Shown here: positions 3,788 through 36,446 of the stretch, in pieces | Layout of the letters: the number at the start of each line of letters is the position of its first letter | How positions within the stretch are numbered: position 1 is the stretch's first letter | NCBI RefSeq assembly: GCF_004341395.1 | Contig: NZ_SLXT01000004.1 | Coordinates: 1-64,000 of the forward strand | Direction of reading: 5' to 3' | Length of the DNA stretch: 64,000 nucleotides | From: Heliophilum fasciatum | GTDB taxonomy: Bacteria > Bacillota > Desulfitobacteriia > Heliobacteriales > Heliobacteriaceae | Program-made: the position numbers and the translations under genes | The notes under the pieces: model-generated | What the model was told of the DNA's origin: nothing | Seen by the model: only the letters and a program-made list of their open reading frames with translations | Databases searched by the model: none

Positions 3788-5305
3788 ATGCAAGAATTTG
3801 AATTTGAAATTGTCATGGGGCTGGAGATTCACTCTGAACTGGCGACCAAGAGCAAGATTTTCTGTGGTTGTACGACCGAGTTCGGCGGTGAGCAAAACAC
3901 CCATGTTTGTCCTGTCTGTCTGGGACTGCCCGGTGTGTTACCGGTTTTAAACCGGCAAGTGGTCGAGTATGCCATGACAGCCGGCCTGGCACTCAACTGT
4001 ACGATTGCTGAGTTTTCTAAGTTTGACCGCAAAAACTATTTTTACCCGGACCTGCCCAAGGCTTATCAAACGTCGCAATATGACTTGCCCATTGCCGAAA
4101 AGGGCTGGGTGGACATCACCACGTCACAAGGAACGAAACGGATCGGTATTACCCGTGTGCACATGGAAGAAGATGCCGGTAAACTCGTTCATGGTGGCGG
4201 AACCTTGGCCGGTGCCGGCTATTCGTTGGCTGACTATAACCGCACGGCTGTGCCCCTCATTGAAATCGTTTCCGAACCCGATATCCGTTCCGTCGAAGAA
4301 GCCATCGCTTATATGGAACATGTGAAGGCGATCCTCGAATATACGGGCGTTTCCGACTGTAAGATGGAACAGGGCAGTTTGCGCTGTGATGCCAACATCT
4401 CCCTGCGCCCTTGGGGCCAAAAAGAGTTTGGCGTGCGGTCAGAGCTCAAGAATATGAACTCGTTCAAGACGCTGCAAAAAGCGCTAGAGTATGAAATCGA
4501 GCGGCAAGCCGAGATCCTCCGCGACGGCGGTGTTGTCGTGCAAGAAACGCGCATGTGGGATGACGCCAAAGGCGTCACCATCTCCTTGCGCAGCAAAGAA
4601 GAAGCCCACGACTACCGGTACTTCCCGGAACCCGATCTGGTGCCGATCATCATTTCCCGGGAGTGGGTGGATCGGGTGCGGGCGGCGTTGCCGGAATTGC
4701 CGGAAGCCCGTCATGAACGCCTCGTCGCTGCCTATGGGCTGCCTTCCTATGATGCCGGCATCATTACCGATTCCAAAGCCATGGCCGATTATTTTGATGC
4801 CGCTTGCCGTCACTACGGCATCGAACCGTCGCCCATTGCCGATGACGACGGCTATCGCCAAGCTGATCAGCAAGGGAAGGATCGAGCCAAACAGATCTCG
4901 AACTATATGATGGGTGAACTGACCCGTCTCGTTAAAGAAGACGGCAAGGGCTTTGAAGATTGCCCGATCTCGCCGGAGAACTTGGTCGGTCTTTTGCAAC
5001 TGCTGGAAGCCGGCACGATCTCCAGCAAAATTGCCAAAACCGTCTTTGAAACGATGTATGCCACCGGTAAGGAAGCCAAAGTGATCGTCGAAGAAAAAGG
5101 TCTGGTCCAGATCTCCGATGAAGGGGCCATTGCCAAGATCGTTGCTGAAATTGTCGATAAAAACCCCAATGTTGTTGCTGATTATAAAGCAGGCAAAGAA
5201 AAAGCCGTGGGCTTCTTTGTCGGTCAGATCATGAAAGCGACCAAAGGCAAAGCCAATCCCGGCGTTGTCAATCAACTACTGAAAGCAGAACTGGACCGTC
5301 GTTAG
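3788..5305 (+). CDS. gatB: Asp-tRNA(Asn)/Glu-tRNA(Gln) amidotransferase subunit B
   Basis: Kinase and tRNA-binding subunit that activates the misacylated aminoacyl-tRNA and amidates it with ammonia from GatA. The ATG at 3788 follows the gatA stop and GGGGAG; GTG 3785 is an in-frame alternative. The N-terminus ([12 protein letters not shown]) is the family signature. The paired cysteines FCGC and CPVC, about 16 residues apart, form the zinc site. The cradle domain and the C-terminal helical YqeY-like tail (residues about 360-505, ending [12 protein letters not shown]) are complete. Length of 505 aa is above the usual size by little. Last gene of the gat operon. Confidence 0.97.
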
Positions 5306-5323
5306 ACGGAACGAAACGAAGTA

Positions 5324-5359
5324 ACGCCCTCCGCTGTGATTACCGCTGCGTGAGGGCGT
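5324..5359 (+). terminator. Hairpin after gatB, no U-tract
   Basis: ACGCCCTC at 5324-5331 pairs with GAGGGCGT at 5352-5359, with a partly paired interior. No T-run follows (TATATTC), so it is not a classical intrinsic terminator. It may be an mRNA-stabilising or Rho-linked structure separating gatCAB from yhaM. Confidence 0.35.
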
Positions 5360-5420
5360 CTATATTCGTAGCGCGGAAGCAACGCAGCGAAAAACTGCGC
5401 GAGAAAGGATCGACCGTTTG

Positions 5421-6428
5421 ATGGGAAACGAACGTAACGAAGGTAAGGGCACAGGGAATCCGGAAGTGCGGGTCTGGGTCAAAGACATCGCTGGCGGCAA
5501 ATTATTTGAAGGCCAACTGGTGGTGCGCCGCTTTGCTCAAGTGCCCTACCGCGATACCAGTAAAGGCCATTACCTGAGCATGCTCTTGGAGGATCGGACC
5601 GGCAAGATTGAAGGGCGTGTCTGGGAAAAAGGCGATCTCGTTCCTCGTATCGCCCAGGTCCTTCAGGAGAACCGGGTGTACCGCGTACGGGGCCTTGCTT
5701 CGGAGTATCAAGGCAGTACACAACTGCATCTGCAAATGGTCGAACCTGTCGATCCGCTGACGATCGATTGGGAAGTTTTTTTACCGGTCACTCCTTGTAA
5801 TCGTCAGGAACTCTGGCGCCGTTGCACTGAAGCGATGGGCGCAGTAGAACAACCGCATTTGCGGGCACTGCTTCAAGGTCTCCTTGACGATCCGGCGGTG
5901 CGCCGTGCCTACACGACGGCGCCGGCGGCCATGACGCACCATCAAGCCTATATCGGCGGTTTGTTGGAGCATTCGCTTGGCGTTGTCGACGTGGCGTTGC
6001 GTCTGGCCGAGACGGCGCCCATGGCCGATCGTGATTTGCTGATCGCCGGTGCCTTGCTTCATGACATCGGCAAGATTGATGAACTGCAGTATGATACGCT
6101 GATCGGCTATACCGATGAAGGTAACTTGCTCGGTCATATTGTCATCGGCATCATGCGCGTCGAACGGGCCATCGAACGAGTTGCCGGGTTTCCTGCTGAA
6201 CTACGCTTGCAGTTACTGCACATTATCGCCAGTCATCACGGTGAGTATGAATATCAATCACCGAAGCGGCCCAAAACCATGGAAAGCTTGATCTTGCACA
6301 TGGCCGATCGCTTTGATGCGGAAAAAGATAAAGTGCTCCGTGGTATCGATGAAGCGCGAGACAACTGGACACCGTGGCTAAAAGGCATGGACCGCAAATT
6401 TTATGTAGGTACAGGTAAGGAACGATGA
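5421..6428 (+). CDS. yhaM: 3'-5' exoribonuclease YhaM family (OB fold plus HD domain)
   Basis: Cytoplasmic exonuclease family that trims RNA (and single-stranded DNA) from the 3' end. The N-terminal part (residues about 15-110, WVKDIAGGKLFEGQLVV to LHLQMVEPVDP) is an OB-fold nucleic-acid-binding domain. The C-terminal HD domain carries H214-D215 in LLHDIGKIDEL, a second conserved stretch ASHHGEYEY, and HMADRFDAEKDK. The ATG at 5421 follows GAAAGGA; TTG 5418 is adjacent. At 335 aa it is slightly longer than Bacillus YhaM. Its stop overlaps the addB start by 4 nt (ATGA), so it shares a transcript with the recombination genes. Confidence 0.9.
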   Translation: MGNERNEGKGTGNPEVRVWVKDIAGGKLFEGQLVVRRFAQVPYRDTSKGHYLSMLLEDRTGKIEGRVWEKGDLVPRIAQVLQENRVYRVRGLASEYQGSTQLHLQMVEPVDPLTIDWEVFLPVTPCNRQELWRRCTEAMGAVEQPHLRALLQGLLDDPAVRRAYTTAPAAMTHHQAYIGGLLEHSLGVVDVALRLAETAPMADRDLLIAGALLHDIGKIDELQYDTLIGYTDEGNLLGHIVIGIMRVERAIERVAGFPAELRLQLLHIIASHHGEYEYQSPKRPKTMESLILHMADRFDAEKDKVLRGIDEARDNWTPWLKGMDRKFYVGTGKER

Positions 6429-29528: not shown

Positions 29529-30293
29529 ATGATTCCTTCGATATTTTTATGCCATGGCGGACCGACACTTGTGGTGGAAAAAAACGAATATACTGATTTT
29601 CTTAAAGACTTGGGCAAAAAACTAACACCTAAAGCTGTTGTCATATTTACAGCCCATTGGGAAAGTGAAATTACAACAATCTCATCAATGGATGATACCT
29701 ACGATATGATCTATGACTTTTCCGGATTCCCAAAAGAATTATATTCAATAAAATATCCTGCCAAGGGTTCTGTAGAAGTAGCTTCAAAGCTCAAATCCAT
29801 GTTGGGTAATAATGGCATTGAAAGCAAGTTTAACGAAAACAGAGGATTGGATCATGGTGCGTGGGATGTTCTTTACTTAATGTATCCAAATGCAACGATA
29901 CCTGTTGTTCAAGTATCAGTAAATCCCTATTTGGCGATGGAAAAGCAATATGAGATAGGAAGGGCCATTAAAGAACTGGGAGAAGAGGATATTCTGGTAA
30001 TAGGAAGCGGTTCGACCGTTCATAACCTTGCTACAGTAGATTGGAATTCTACAAAGGTGGAAGAATGGGCAGTAGAGTTTGACAATTGGCTTATAGAAAA
30101 AGTAGAGAATAATGATAAAGAAGTTCTGTTTAATTACAGGGAGACAGCACCATATGCTAAACGTGCCATACCACGTGAGGAGCACATAGTTCCTATGTTT
30201 ATAGCCATGGGATGCGGTAACAAAGACAAGCCAAAGCTTTTACACCAAAGCTATGTATATGGAACTTTAAGTTATATATGTTTTGAGTTCTAA
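29529..30293 (+). CDS. Class III extradiol dioxygenase / DODA-family protein, AT-rich copy
   Basis: A 254-aa protein of the LigB/DODA (YgiD-like) family. Seen: N-terminal FLCHGGPTLVVE, the metal-binding region FTAHWES, the conserved RGLDHGAWDVLYLMYP, and GSGSTVHNLATV. The histidines in CHGG, AHWE, LDHG and VHN match the usual metal and proton-transfer residues. Family members cleave catecholic rings such as DOPA, but bacterial substrates are mostly unknown. The gene is clearly more AT-rich than its surroundings and uses codons such as ATA and AAA heavily, so it was probably acquired. A GC-typical paralogue lies at 41681-42460. RBS AAAAGGAAGTG precedes ATG 29529. Confidence 0.88.
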   Translation: MIPSIFLCHGGPTLVVEKNEYTDFLKDLGKKLTPKAVVIFTAHWESEITTISSMDDTYDMIYDFSGFPKELYSIKYPAKGSVEVASKLKSMLGNNGIESKFNENRGLDHGAWDVLYLMYPNATIPVVQVSVNPYLAMEKQYEIGRAIKELGEEDILVIGSGSTVHNLATVDWNSTKVEEWAVEFDNWLIEKVENNDKEVLFNYRETAPYAKRAIPREEHIVPMFIAMGCGNKDKPKLLHQSYVYGTLSYICFEF

Positions 30294-31819: not shown

Positions 31820-31857
31820 GCACTCTACGGCCAATGTTGTAGAGTGCATTTTTTTAT
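31820..31857 (+). terminator. Intrinsic terminator after the DsbA-family gene
   Basis: GCACTCTAC (31820-31828) pairs with GTAGAGTGC (31839-31847) and is followed by ATTTTTTTAT. A standard Rho-independent terminator. Confidence 0.87.
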
Positions 31858-31898: not shown

Positions 31899-31928
31899 TT
31901 GAAAATTGGATGGATTATGAAGTATGAT
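31899..31928 (+). promoter_or_regulatory. Sigma-A-like promoter for the RsbQ-like/GGDEF pair
   Basis: TTGAAA (31899-31904), an 18-bp spacer and TATGAT (31923-31928), about 50 bp upstream of the hydrolase start at 31979. The preceding terminator makes this the likely start of the two-gene transcript. Confidence 0.5.
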
Positions 31929-31978
31929 CAAACTAACGATCATCCCGTGTGCAACTCGTTATTGGAGGAGGGGAATTA

Positions 31979-32800
31979 ATGAAAAACATTTTATCACGCA
32001 ACAATGTCAACATCCTTGGAAAAGGAAAAAAAACGATCCTATTCGGCCACGGTTTTGGCTGTGATCAAAATATCTGGCGGCTCATGATTCCCTATTTTGA
32101 AGACGACTACCGAATTGTCCTCTTTGACTATGTTGGGTCAGGGAAGGCCGATGTTGCCGCTTATGATCCGCAACGTTACAGCACTCTGCATGGGTATGCC
32201 CGGGATGTCATCGAGATTTTAGAAGCTCTCGCTGGTGACCCCGTCATCTTCATCGGGCACTCCGTCAGTGGTATGCTCGGTTTGCTGGCGTCGATCCAAA
32301 GACCGGGGTTATTTGCAGCGCTGATCATGCTCGGTGCTTCACCGAGGTATATCAATGACCTGCCCGATTATTATGGTGGCTTTACGGATGATGAAGTCAG
32401 CCAGTTGCTGGACATGATGGAGCAAAATTTTGTGGGCTGGGCAAGCGTCAATGCCGCTGCCTTGATGAACCAGCCCGAACAGCCTCACCTGACTGAGCAA
32501 TTAAAAGCGGCCCTTTCTGCGGAGAACGCCTTAGTGATGCATAATTTTGCTAAAGCCATCTTTTTATCGGATCACCGGAAGTACTTGGCCGAGGCTACAG
32601 TCCCGACTTTAATTGTGCAATGTTCGGAAGACAGCATCGTGCCAATCGAGGTTGGAACCTATCTGCATAACCATATCAAGAACAGTGTGCTGAAAGTTAC
32701 AGATACCAAAGGACATTACCCTCATATCAGTCAACCGCAGGAAACGGCAAAAATGATCTTGAACTACATAACTGGCACTAGCGTTTCCGGAGAACCATAA
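31979..32800 (+). CDS. RsbQ-like alpha/beta hydrolase
   Basis: A 273-aa alpha/beta hydrolase from ATG 31979 with GGAGGAGGGG upstream. The catalytic triad is S95 (FIGHSVSGML), D218 (VQCSEDSIVP) and H246 (GHYPHIS), within one residue of the S96/D219/H247 triad I recall for Bacillus subtilis RsbQ. The oxyanion region LFGHGFGCDQNIW is also RsbQ-like. RsbQ generates or binds an unknown small hydrophobic ligand that is sensed by the PAS domain of RsbP; the fold is shared with plant karrikin/strigolactone receptors. Here the next gene, 15 bp downstream, is a PAS-GGDEF protein rather than a PP2C phosphatase. A signalling rather than metabolic role is inferred. Confidence 0.88.
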   Translation: MKNILSRNNVNILGKGKKTILFGHGFGCDQNIWRLMIPYFEDDYRIVLFDYVGSGKADVAAYDPQRYSTLHGYARDVIEILEALAGDPVIFIGHSVSGMLGLLASIQRPGLFAALIMLGASPRYINDLPDYYGGFTDDEVSQLLDMMEQNFVGWASVNAAALMNQPEQPHLTEQLKAALSAENALVMHNFAKAIFLSDHRKYLAEATVPTLIVQCSEDSIVPIEVGTYLHNHIKNSVLKVTDTKGHYPHISQPQETAKMILNYITGTSVSGEP

Positions 32801-32815
32801 AAGAAAGATGGGATC

Positions 32816-34453
32816 ATGGTGAACTGTCGGATGACCAACGCCCCCTGTGGCTACCTTACCGTAACATCGCAAGGGTTGATCAAGGATGTCAATCAAACCT
32901 TATTAACTATGCTGGGATATGAACAAGATGATTTGTTACATCAACACATGGAATCGCTTTTAACATCTGCCAGTAAAATGGTCTTTCACTCCTTGTTTTT
33001 TCTTCAATTGCAACTTAAGGGGCAAATTGAAGAGATCTATGTCACTTTGAAAGGTAAAAATCGGGAAGAGATACCGGTTTTAATGCTGGGGAACAAAGTA
33101 ACTGATGATACTGATGCAATGATCGATTGTATGGTTGTTAAGATGGCCAAACGCAATGAATACGAAAAGGAACTCCGGCAGGTCAAAAAAGAATTAGAGA
33201 GAGCGTACAAAAAAGAAAATGAACTGCGCAGCCTCTTTGAAACCACCCTTTTTTCGATCAATGAAGGCATCATTGTTACCGACAAAGAGGGGAAAATCAC
33301 CCTCATGAATCGAATGGCCGAAATATTTACCGGATGGCCGCAGGCATCGGTGATCGGCCAAGCATTTGCCGACATATTTCTAACTTATCATCGTCAGACA
33401 AGAGAAAAAAAACCAGTCATTATCGACGATATGGTCTGTGTGGGATGCCAGGGCAGCATCGATGATGTGATATTAGTTTCCCGCGATGGAACAGAACGCT
33501 TTATCATGGGAACGGTAGCCAACATGGTGGCGAAAGATGGCGGAATTACCGGCGTCGTGATTTCGTTCCGCGATATCACCAAAGAATATCTCCAAGCCAA
33601 AGAGATCGACGGGTTTTTGAATGTAAATTTAGATATGCTTTGCGTGACTGATTTAGCTGCTAATTTTCATAAGGTCAATAAAAAATTTGAAGAGATTCTG
33701 GGTTATAAAACGGAAGAATTGGTAGGGGAAAGTTATCTTTCCTTTATCCATGAAGAAGATATTCCCGGCACGCTCGATGCAATGAAAGCGCTGACCAATC
33801 AAAATGCCCTATCGGGCTTTACCAATCGCTATCGATGCAAGGACGGTTCCTATAAATATATCGAATGGCACAGCCAACCGGGTGTCGGAGGATTTATCTA
33901 TTCCTCGGCTCGGGACGTAACGGAAAAGAAACAAAAAGAAGAGCAATTGCTAAAAATTGCTGTCCGCGATCAATTAACCGGTCTTTATAACCGTCATTAC
34001 TTTAATATGATTCTCGGTGAAGAAATGGAAAAAGCCGATCGCTATCAGCAACCGCTGACCTTAGCCATCTTAGATTTAGATCATTTCAAATATGTCAATG
34101 ACACATGGGGTCATCCGATTGGCGATGAACTCCTCAAGCTGACGGCCGCAACTGCCAAAAAGCAGTTGCGCGGCGCTGATTTACTGATCCGATTCGGCGG
34201 CGAAGAATTTGTCGTATTGATGCCGCAGACATCCACCCAGGGTGCGATCAAGGCATTGGAAAAAATCCGTCTGGCCATCGAAAACACCGATCACCCCGTT
34301 ACGGGCAAACGAACGGTCAGCATCGGTGTGGCCGAGCGAGCCACAACCGAAGCGTTTCGTGACTGGTATCAACGTGCTGACGAAGCGTTATATCGCGCCA
34401 AACAAAAAGGACGCAACCGTGTTGTCGCATACGAATTGGGAAAATCGAAATGA
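32816..34453 (+). CDS. PAS-PAS-PAS-GGDEF protein, diguanylate cyclase with RsbP-like N-terminus
   Basis: A 545-aa cytoplasmic protein without membrane segments. Residues 7-115 form a PAS domain (APCGYLTVTSQGLIKDVNQ, then IEEIYVTLKGKNREEIPVLM) that closely recalls the RsbP sensor domain. A short coiled coil (about 115-140) leads to a second PAS (about 140-260, ending VVISFRDITKEY), a third PAS/PAC (about 265-375, RYRCKDGSYKYIEWHSQP), and a GGDEF domain (about 385-540). The active site is GGEEF at 461-465 with the upstream DLDHFKYVND metal motif, so cyclic di-GMP synthesis from GTP is expected. An RxxD inhibitory site is not obvious at the expected place. It is co-transcribed with the RsbQ-like hydrolase. 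Confidence 0.92.
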   Translation: MVNCRMTNAPCGYLTVTSQGLIKDVNQTLLTMLGYEQDDLLHQHMESLLTSASKMVFHSLFFLQLQLKGQIEEIYVTLKGKNREEIPVLMLGNKVTDDTDAMIDCMVVKMAKRNEYEKELRQVKKELERAYKKENELRSLFETTLFSINEGIIVTDKEGKITLMNRMAEIFTGWPQASVIGQAFADIFLTYHRQTREKKPVIIDDMVCVGCQGSIDDVILVSRDGTERFIMGTVANMVAKDGGITGVVISFRDITKEYLQAKEIDGFLNVNLDMLCVTDLAANFHKVNKKFEEILGYKTEELVGESYLSFIHEEDIPGTLDAMKALTNQNALSGFTNRYRCKDGSYKYIEWHSQPGVGGFIYSSARDVTEKKQKEEQLLKIAVRDQLTGLYNRHYFNMILGEEMEKADRYQQPLTLAILDLDHFKYVNDTWGHPIGDELLKLTAATAKKQLRGADLLIRFGGEEFVVLMPQTSTQGAIKALEKIRLAIENTDHPVTGKRTVSIGVAERATTEAFRDWYQRADEALYRAKQKGRNRVVAYELGKSK

Positions 34454-34503
34454 TTCCTGCCAATAAATCCACCGAATGCGAGGAAAAAGGGAGGGCTATT
34501 CCC

Positions 34504-34569
34504 ATGAGAGAGGCGTTGACCAAGCGAATCTTAAAGAACGGCAATCGTGTGGAGATGGCTACGATCTAA
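34504..34569 (+). CDS. 22-codon open frame with good ribosome site
   Basis: GGGAGGG lies about 9 nt before ATG 34504, which opens a 21-aa frame (MREALTKRILKNGNRVEMAT, then I). It may be a leader peptide or the leftover start of a decayed gene between the GGDEF and DUF554 genes. I see no homologue pattern I can name. Low confidence that it is expressed. Confidence 0.25.
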   Translation: MREALTKRILKNGNRVEMATI

Positions 34570-34631
34570 GTAGGATAGGTCAGTCTGAATCATTGCCGAT
34601 CGAGAAAGAATCCAAACGTAAGGAGAAAACA

Positions 34632-35324
34632 GTGTTAGGAACGCTTGTAAATACCCTGGCGATTATCATCGGAGGAACATTAGGGCTTTGGTTTGGCCAT
34701 GCTGTGCCGGAAAAAATGAAAGAGACGGTGCTCCAAGGATTGGGATTGGCCGTTTTGCTGATTGGCGGCAGCATGGCTTTAAAGACCAACAATGTCCTTG
34801 TGGTCATTGGCGCGTTAGTGATCGGCGGAATGATCGGCGAGTTTGTGGACATCGAACAGAAGTTAAAGAACTTCGGCCATTGGGTGGAAAACAAAATCGC
34901 CCGTGGTGAAGATGGGCGATTTACCAAAGCTTTTGTCAGCACAAGCCTCATTTATTGTGTGGGGGCGATGGCGATCATGGGCTCCATCGAAAGCGGCGTT
35001 AACGGTGATCATCGTATCTTGATGGTGAAATCGCTGTTGGACGGCATATCGTCCATTGTGTTTGCTTCTTCCCTGGGGATCGGCGTGTTGGCTTCGGCGA
35101 TTCCGGTATTTTTGTATCAAGGGGCCATTACATTGGCTGCCGGTTTGTTACAAACGATTCTTTCTTCGTCCATCATTACGGAAATGAGTGCTACCGGCGG
35201 ATTGCTCATCGTAGGCATCGGCCTGACGATGTTAGAGATTAAAGAAATCAAAGTGGGTAATCTGTTACCGGCCATATTTGTGGCGATCCCGCTGAGCGCT
35301 CTGGTTACCCGCTTGAATATCTAA
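34632..35324 (+). CDS. DUF554 family membrane protein
   Basis: A 230-aa integral membrane protein of the YdfK/YqgA-like DUF554 family. GTG 34632 follows AAGGAGAAAACA, and translation begins VLGTLVNTLAIIIGGTLGLWFG; the frame extends upstream without a site. About six hydrophobic helices can be seen (for example GLAVLLIGGSMAL, VVIGALVIGGMIGEFVDIE, AFVSTSLIYCVGAMAIMGSIESG, LLQTILSSSIITEMSATGGLLIVGIGLTML). The glycine-rich GEFVDIEQKL loop and SLIYCVGAMAIMGS are family hallmarks. Transport is assumed for the family but no substrate is established. Followed by the hairpin at 35404. Confidence 0.88.
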   Translation: MLGTLVNTLAIIIGGTLGLWFGHAVPEKMKETVLQGLGLAVLLIGGSMALKTNNVLVVIGALVIGGMIGEFVDIEQKLKNFGHWVENKIARGEDGRFTKAFVSTSLIYCVGAMAIMGSIESGVNGDHRILMVKSLLDGISSIVFASSLGIGVLASAIPVFLYQGAITLAAGLLQTILSSSIITEMSATGGLLIVGIGLTMLEIKEIKVGNLLPAIFVAIPLSALVTRLNI

Positions 35325-35403: not shown

Positions 35404-35455
35404 CGACAGTCCTGTTTTGTCAACTTTGAGCAAGGCGGGACTGTCGGATTTTTTT
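35404..35455 (+). terminator. Intrinsic terminator between DUF554 and pentapeptide genes
   Basis: CGACAGTCC (35404-35412) pairs with GGACTGTCG (35438-35446), followed by GATTTTTTT. The T-run ends about 30 bp before the pentapeptide gene, so it could also act as an attenuator for that gene. Confidence 0.78.
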
Positions 35456-35486
35456 GGGCGAAAAAAGGAAGGCGGTGAGCGATTCC

Positions 35487-36446
35487 ATGGCCAATGATCA
35501 GCATGTCGATATACTATTGAAAGGTGTAGATGTTTGGAATCGGTGGCGAAAAGAGAACCCGGAGATTGCCCCCGATCTCAGCGGTGCCAAGTTAAGCAAC
35601 CGGGATTTTTCGAAAGCGAATTTCAATGGAACCAACTTCAGTAATACAGAATTAAGCAAAGCAACTTTCTACAAAAGTAATTTAACAGGTACCATATTCA
35701 ACGGTTCCAGTATGTGTAACGCCAAAATCATTGAATCCAATTTTTGTTTCGCCAACCTTAAGCAAACCAACATGGAAAGCGTATATGTCGTCAAAAGCAG
35801 AATGATGGGTGCTCATTTTAACGGAGCAGTTTTGGTTAAATCGTTGATCGCCGAGACTACCTTCGCACGGTCCAAGTTTCACGCCACAGATCTGGAAAAT
35901 GCCAATCTAACGATCGTAAACATGGAAAAGACCGATATTGATGAATCTTTTTTTTATCGCGCCAACCTTAACAAAGCATCCTTGCGCTGGTCCCGTTTGC
36001 GCAAAAACAATGTAAGTCAGGCCTATCTCATCGATACTGACTTTTCGGGCACCTATATTTACGATAGCAATTTCAGTGAGGCTAACCTCAGCAACGCAAA
36101 GTTTTATTATTCTTTCCTTTGTAAAGTGGATTTGAGTGAAACTAACCTTGGTAAAGCTGGTTTTTCGGAAGCGGCTCTTAATGTCATCAATCTTAAAGGT
36201 GCATCGCTGGAAAATTCACAGTTATCATCTGTTTTTCTAAGTGGTGTAAATTTGAGGAATGCGAACCTCCAGGCATTACGTTTGGAAAAAGCTGATCTTT
36301 ATCAATTAGACTTTAACGGGGCAGACCTGCGTGGAGCCAATTTATCCGGTTCTGTTCTTAATCAAGCCAATCTGGGTAATACAAATCTGTCCGGCGTAAC
36401 CATCCATGATATGGAGTTTAATAACATTAATTTTAATGCTTTTTGA
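35487..36446 (+). CDS. Pentapeptide-repeat protein
   Basis: A 319-aa protein from ATG 35487, with AAGGCGGTGAG upstream. The N-terminal helix (VDILLKGVDVWNRWRKENPEIAPDLSGAKL) is a leader seen in many pentapeptide proteins. From residue about 32 to the end, A(N/D)LXX-type repeats run almost without a break (ANFNG, SNLTG, ANLKQ, ANLTI, ANLNK, ANLSN, ADLRGANLSG), predicting a right-handed quadrilateral beta-helix of about 13 coils. No signal peptide or membrane segment. Some pentapeptide proteins mimic DNA and protect gyrase, but nothing here proves this. Standing alone between terminators. Confidence 0.92.
   Translation: MANDQHVDILLKGVDVWNRWRKENPEIAPDLSGAKLSNRDFSKANFNGTNFSNTELSKATFYKSNLTGTIFNGSSMCNAKIIESNFCFANLKQTNMESVYVVKSRMMGAHFNGAVLVKSLIAETTFARSKFHATDLENANLTIVNMEKTDIDESFFYRANLNKASLRWSRLRKNNVSQAYLIDTDFSGTYIYDSNFSEANLSNAKFYYSFLCKVDLSETNLGKAGFSEAALNVINLKGASLENSQLSSVFLSGVNLRNANLQALRLEKADLYQLDFNGADLRGANLSGSVLNQANLGNTNLSGVTIHDMEFNNINFNAF

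Follow-up and report, generated by a model that had tools for sequence, protein, structure and literature searches.

A probable RsbQ-PAS sensory module with a predicted diguanylate cyclase output in the heliobacterium Heliophilum fasciatum

The RsbQ-RsbP energy-stress pair of Bacillus subtilis joins an alpha/beta hydrolase to a PAS-domain protein that ends in a PP2C phosphatase acting on the RsbV/sigma-B pathway. A gene pair of Heliophilum fasciatum shares the hydrolase family and the PAS class with that system but carries a GGDEF domain behind two more PAS domains, and this raises the question of whether the two products work as one sensory device that feeds into cyclic di-GMP. The pair lies in a stretch of 64,000 nucleotides (contig NZ_SLXT01000004.1, positions 1 to 64,000), which as a whole is called the window below. 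We consider it quite probable that the two genes make up a bipartite RsbQ-PAS module of the kind described in 2011, a sensory device whose output is a diguanylate cyclase, and that a heliobacterium acquired it.

The precedent for this arrangement comes from Nadezhdin, Brody and Price (PLoS One 2011, PMC3183031), who described 45 cases in which homologues of RsbQ and of the RsbP PAS domain are adjacent; the output is a PP2C phosphatase, a histidine kinase or a diguanylate cyclase, and five of the 45 module proteins have additional PAS domains. In their proposal, a single input is passed through the module to varied outputs, cyclic di-GMP among them (PMC3183031). The first-pass annotation of the locus had implied that the combination of RsbQ, PAS and cyclase was new, and this novelty must be given up because the same idea, with cyclase outputs and extra PAS domains among the examples, was already in the 2011 paper. 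Judged by titles and abstracts, a literature search on heliobacteria and cyclic di-GMP, or on RsbQ and cyclic di-GMP, turned up nothing on this point beyond that paper. What is new here is more modest, namely the heliobacterial host, a clade of three members whose contact helix is altered, and a clade of output-less pairs in the Bacillales.

The upstream gene (31979..32800, plus strand) runs from an ATG at 31979 to a stop codon ending at 32800 and encodes an RsbQ-type alpha/beta hydrolase of 273 aa. The best match among solved structures is B. subtilis RsbQ (1wom; E 3.9e-95, 321.6 bits, residues 1-264), Pfam recognizes an Abhydrolase_1 domain (4e-22), and the protein's place in the hydrolase tree agrees with this assignment. 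The Ser-Asp-His triad is intact as S95, D218 and H246, exactly the positions given when the protein was originally called an RsbQ homologue.

The same annotation pointed to a kinship of fold with the plant karrikin and strigolactone receptors, and this is borne out by matches to KAI2 and KAI2-like chains in the range of 207-223 bits (best KAI2-like chain, 222.8 bits). The hydrolase and the KAI2/D14 receptors share the alpha/beta hydrolase fold, the four-helix cap and the Ser-His-Asp triad; the receptors differ in lacking a PAS domain, and their partners are F-box proteins, unlike the partner of the RsbQ-type hydrolase. One could imagine from this kinship, and from the isolation of H. fasciatum from rice soil (PMC9147875), that the bacterium gained a receptor for plant butenolides, either karrikin or a strigolactone-like compound. 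We regard this as very improbable. The hydrolase is much nearer to RsbQ than to the plant proteins (321.6 vs 222.8 bits), and its position 119 is Gly, as in RsbQ and D14, rather than the Ser found in KAI2 (PMC3548789). Furthermore, a shared fold does not fix the identity of a ligand, and the literature examined gives no ligand for any bacterial RsbQ.

The partner gene (32816..34453, plus strand) follows immediately downstream on the same strand after a gap of 15 nt. Upstream of the pair, between a DsbA-like gene and the hydrolase gene, a pattern scan found a hairpin that resembles an intrinsic terminator by consensus match only (31820..31847, plus strand; 12 bp stem with a T-rich tail), and the hydrolase start codon is preceded by the purine-rich sequence GGAGGAGGGG (31964..31973, plus strand), likely a strong ribosome-binding site. 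Because of these two elements, the two genes plausibly form their own transcription unit. A possible sigma-70-type promoter upstream of the hydrolase gene (31899..31928, plus strand) is a weak candidate from a pattern scan, since its 10/12 matches do not exceed what shuffling of this region leads one to expect. There were no Rfam matches within the window.

Several neighbouring genes deserve a brief mention in their own right. Downstream of the pair is a gene for a DUF554 membrane protein (34476-35324); the first ATG of this reading frame is probably not the true start, and a GTG at 34632 better suits the N-terminus of the family. A pentapeptide-repeat protein of 330 aa (35454-36446) falls under the cut-offs of every named family that it matched. 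On the other side, a LigB-type extradiol dioxygenase gene (29529-30293), whose product resembles 4,5-DOPA dioxygenase (it scores 182.5 bits where the cut-off is 233), is odd for an anaerobe.

The partner is a predicted diguanylate cyclase of 545 aa, arranged as PAS1-helix-PAS2-PAS3-GGDEF. PAS1 (residues about 12-109; 32849..33142, plus strand), delimited by profile, alignment and model, is followed by a helical linker (residues 112-145; 33149..33250, plus strand), which is likely a coiled-coil, a reading taken from the helix in the AlphaFold2 model, where pLDDT is about 45-59 over most of the length. PAS2 (residues about 151-253; 33266..33574, plus strand) is found by Pfam (PF00989 and PF13426) and in the model and is followed by the usual RDIT motif. 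PAS3 (residues about 274-367; 33635..33916, plus strand) is matched by Pfam PAS_3 at 286-355 and also appears in the model, in which a short helix (369-383) joins it to the GGDEF domain. The protein had at first been read as PAS-PAS-GGDEF, a miscount in which PAS3 was overlooked; this architecture was rejected on three PAS stretches in Pfam and three PAS domains in the AlphaFold2 model. The mean pLDDT of that model is 82, and the placement of the domains relative to one another is uncertain given its pTM of 0.40.

The GGDEF domain itself (residues about 385-538; 33959..34429, plus strand) is recognized by Pfam (PF00990, 2.1e-44) and by the genome search. Its GGEEF motif is intact at residue 461, in agreement with the first-pass annotation, and the inhibitory I-site RxxD is intact as RGAD at residue 452. 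With both the GGEEF motif and the GGDEF fold in the model, the protein is predicted to be an active diguanylate cyclase, and its GGDEF domain is one of the three outputs known for the module. No PP2C domain was found in the partner by a Pfam scan, whereas the RsbP of a B. subtilis-group locus (L061), used as a control, does have one; the partner thus lacks the C-terminal PP2C/SpoIIE domain that marks an RsbP. The likeness to the 2011 cyclase modules extends to an RsbQ homologue immediately upstream, an N-terminal RsbP-type PAS domain, a helical linker and, as in some of those proteins, extra PAS domains.

The assignment of PAS1 to the RsbP class rests first on a profile made from the PAS domains of RsbQ neighbours, from which the window and the three rows nearest to it were left out. 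PAS1 scores 127.7 bits against this profile, compared to 7.4 for PAS2 and 11.9 for PAS3, and so is far nearer to the RsbQ-partner PAS domains than are the other two PAS domains of this protein. The published RsbP-type class is missing the DIT motif (PMC3183031), and PAS1 accordingly ends in DCMVVKMAKRNEYEKEL, without DIT; the RDIT of this protein comes only after PAS2. Searches of solved structures with PAS1 returned weak generic PAS matches only. As judged from its sequence, PAS1 is a member of the RsbQ-partner PAS group.

The RsbP of L061 (a locus whose RsbQ shares 88% identity with that of B. subtilis over the part tested) also allowed published RsbP residues to be mapped directly onto PAS1, because all the RsbP residues that PMC3183031 names carry the same numbers in L061. 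The nine residues that distinguish the RsbP-type class are a 75% consensus and not absolute (PMC3183031). PAS1 keeps or conservatively replaces C10, L13, L48, Q53 (as K), C56 (as F), E72 and P86, and it has replaced F55 (V) and Y59 (L), along with the class-conserved P62 (L). These last three correspond to V56, L60 and L63 of PAS1, in the F-alpha helix (residues 51-68; 32966..33019, plus strand) defined by the alignment and the AlphaFold2 model, and they set PAS1 apart from the F-alpha signature of the 2011 modules. The domain had been described as very similar to the PAS of RsbP; the class stands, while the degree of similarity was overstated, given 34.5% identity to the L061 domain and the loss of known RsbQ-contact residues.

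How regularly such a hydrolase is paired with such a PAS domain was judged from 59 RsbQ homologues collected by genome searches, a sample tilted toward window-like sequences and toward Bacillota. A relative of PAS1 is encoded directly downstream in 56 of the 59 loci, with constant gene order across Bacillota, Cyanobacteriota and Pseudomonadota. The outputs of these 56 pairs are GGDEF in 38 (one with EAL), histidine kinase in 5, PP2C in 1 and none in 12. The pairing recurs at plasmid loci of Rhizobium, Streptomyces, Phaeobacter, Sphingobium and Eleftheria, there with a kinase or a phosphatase. This regularity bears on the possibility that two unconnected genes lie side by side by accident, one for an ordinary metabolic esterase and the other for a PAS-GGDEF sensor that works independently of it. 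Such a reading could appeal to the few homologues that have no PAS neighbour (L013, L025 and L028, plus plasmid loci L070 and L072), found in Pseudanabaena, in Hymenobacter (two chromosomal loci, and a plasmid one with a split hydrolase) and on a Deinococcus plasmid. With the pair conserved in the same order in three phyla, we rejected accidental adjacency as extremely unlikely. The hydrolase is thus not often found without its PAS partner, and the central proposal of the first-pass annotation, that an RsbQ-type hydrolase and an RsbP-type PAS domain would feed a diguanylate cyclase, is supported at the level of sequence, having withstood both of the refuting conditions named with it, this one and the comparison of PAS1 with other PAS domains.

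The survey also turned up variants of separate interest. In the two Hymenobacter loci L025 and L028 (about 4974-6351) the gene adjoining the RsbQ homologue encodes a DUF2383 protein, and these homologues may be stand-alone enzymes or receptors. Cyanobacterial modules (L009, L010, L016 and L007) carry a GAF domain between the PAS domain and the GGDEF or kinase output. In twelve Bacillales loci, mostly of Paenibacillus but also of Cohnella and Neobacillus (L015, L017-L022, L024, L030, L031, L037 and L062), the partner of the RsbQ homologue is a short PAS protein (116-185 aa) that lacks any output domain. The 2011 survey contained just two output-less cases, which were ascribed to incomplete or faulty sequence (PMC3183031). 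The twelve found here form one clade in both the hydrolase tree and the PAS tree, which makes sequencing error an unlikely explanation; presumably the PAS protein works in trans, through some other protein.

The window pair itself falls into a clade with loci from Gorillibacterium timonense (L004) and Clostridium chromiireducens (L005), with support of 100/100 in the hydrolase tree and 100/99 in the PAS tree. The recovery of the same three members in both trees argues that the hydrolase and PAS genes travel together. G. timonense, from another class of Bacillota, has the closest pair by hydrolase identity (62%; PAS1, 43%) and an identical PAS-PAS-PAS-GGDEF architecture (546 aa). The C. chromiireducens proteins are 61% (hydrolase) and 47% (PAS1) identical, but here the output is a histidine kinase (HisKA-HATPase) without PAS2 or PAS3. 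This switch of output among clade mates indicates that PAS2 and PAS3 are not needed by the module. The C. chromiireducens kinase gene (L005:5839-7089) is, as one from a Gram-positive, also an exception to a statement of the 2011 survey, in which kinase outputs were confined to Gram-negatives (PMC3183031).

All three members of the clade share the changes in the F-alpha helix: F55 is V or I, Y59 is L, and P62 is L or M. Across the 57 PAS domains of the alignment, in which one duplicate pair is counted, position 55 holds F in 38, position 59 holds Y or H in 51, and position 62 holds P in 52. In B. subtilis, genetics, two-hybrid and pull-down experiments demonstrated a contact of RsbQ with the PAS domain and the importance of F55, and the F55A and Y59A forms of RsbP were null, with the RsbQ interaction disrupted (PMC3183031). 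Since residues needed there are replaced here, as is P62, the contact between hydrolase and PAS1 may differ or be weak.

These replacements, together with the intact triad, are what one would expect if the hydrolase only made or destroyed a diffusible ligand for PAS1 (or for PAS2 or PAS3) and formed no stable complex with PAS1; the loss of contact aromatics would then mirror the loss of docking. Model 1 of the 2011 paper, in which the hydrolase supplies a product to the PAS domain, lends this idea some support, although that model has the product delivered directly (PMC3183031). Against it, the genes stay adjacent and form the same clade in both trees. Moreover, the three clade hydrolases carry specific changes at ten positions that are conserved elsewhere, and 6/10 lie in the lid, set here at residues 132-196 (hypergeometric P 0.02, a modest value), which fits a contact that was changed but retained. 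We therefore judge a purely diffusible ligand to be rather unlikely. The remodelled interface is itself a lead and not proof, as there are only three sequences and they share descent.

On the preferred reading of a bipartite module, the cytoplasmic hydrolase would bind or turn over a small molecule and would signal to PAS1 through direct contact. The PAS1-helix-PAS2-PAS3-helix stack is pictured as a dimer whose geometry PAS1 would in turn alter, and this geometry may control the meeting of two GGDEF domains and thereby the amount of cyclic di-GMP. PAS2 and PAS3 are likely to contribute further inputs or to pass the signal on, and product inhibition through the RxxD site is probable.

The host of this module is an anaerobic phototroph, while the earlier survey credited all 45 of its hosts with a capacity for aerobic respiration (PMC3183031). 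The genome encodes the heliobacterial reaction-centre protein PshA (905.8 bits to 5v8k) and BchL (above the curated cut-off); a search of the assembly for 16S rRNA found none. Heliobacteria are strict anaerobes. The genome also contains a gene for a COX1-family oxidase or nitric oxide reductase (G000 C24:18267-19517, minus strand). A search of 100 relatives, eight of them from the same family, found no counterpart of the hydrolase at E 1e-30, and for this reason the module was probably acquired by horizontal transfer.

With around ten GGDEF proteins and four matches to PilZ, the genome indicates that a cyclic di-GMP network exists and that the output of the module has possible readers. Motile cell bundles have been described as unique to the genus Heliophilum among heliobacteria; those who described the genome could not account for them genetically and suggested biofilm-like behaviour (PMC9147875). 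A higher number of GGDEF proteins was rejected as the cause, as the 11 GGDEF matches of Heliophilum compare with 6-17 in other family members. As a matter of speculation, a module that would make cyclic di-GMP and that occurs only in this species among the sampled family is a candidate for the bundle trait. The combined proposal, that the clade has remodelled its hydrolase-PAS interface, with aliphatic for aromatic F-alpha contacts and matching lid changes, and also that cyclic di-GMP from the Heliophilum module underlies the motile bundles, is a long shot.

The heliobacterium and C. chromiireducens extend the host range of the RsbQ-PAS module, and with a Clostridium and an anaerobic heliobacterium among its carriers, the case for a signal that depends on aerobic respiration is weaker. 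The ligand of RsbQ is a question of more than two decades' standing, and modules with a cyclase offer an output, cyclic di-GMP, that is easily measured. The three-member clade with its altered F-alpha helix provides a natural test of the contact model derived from B. subtilis.
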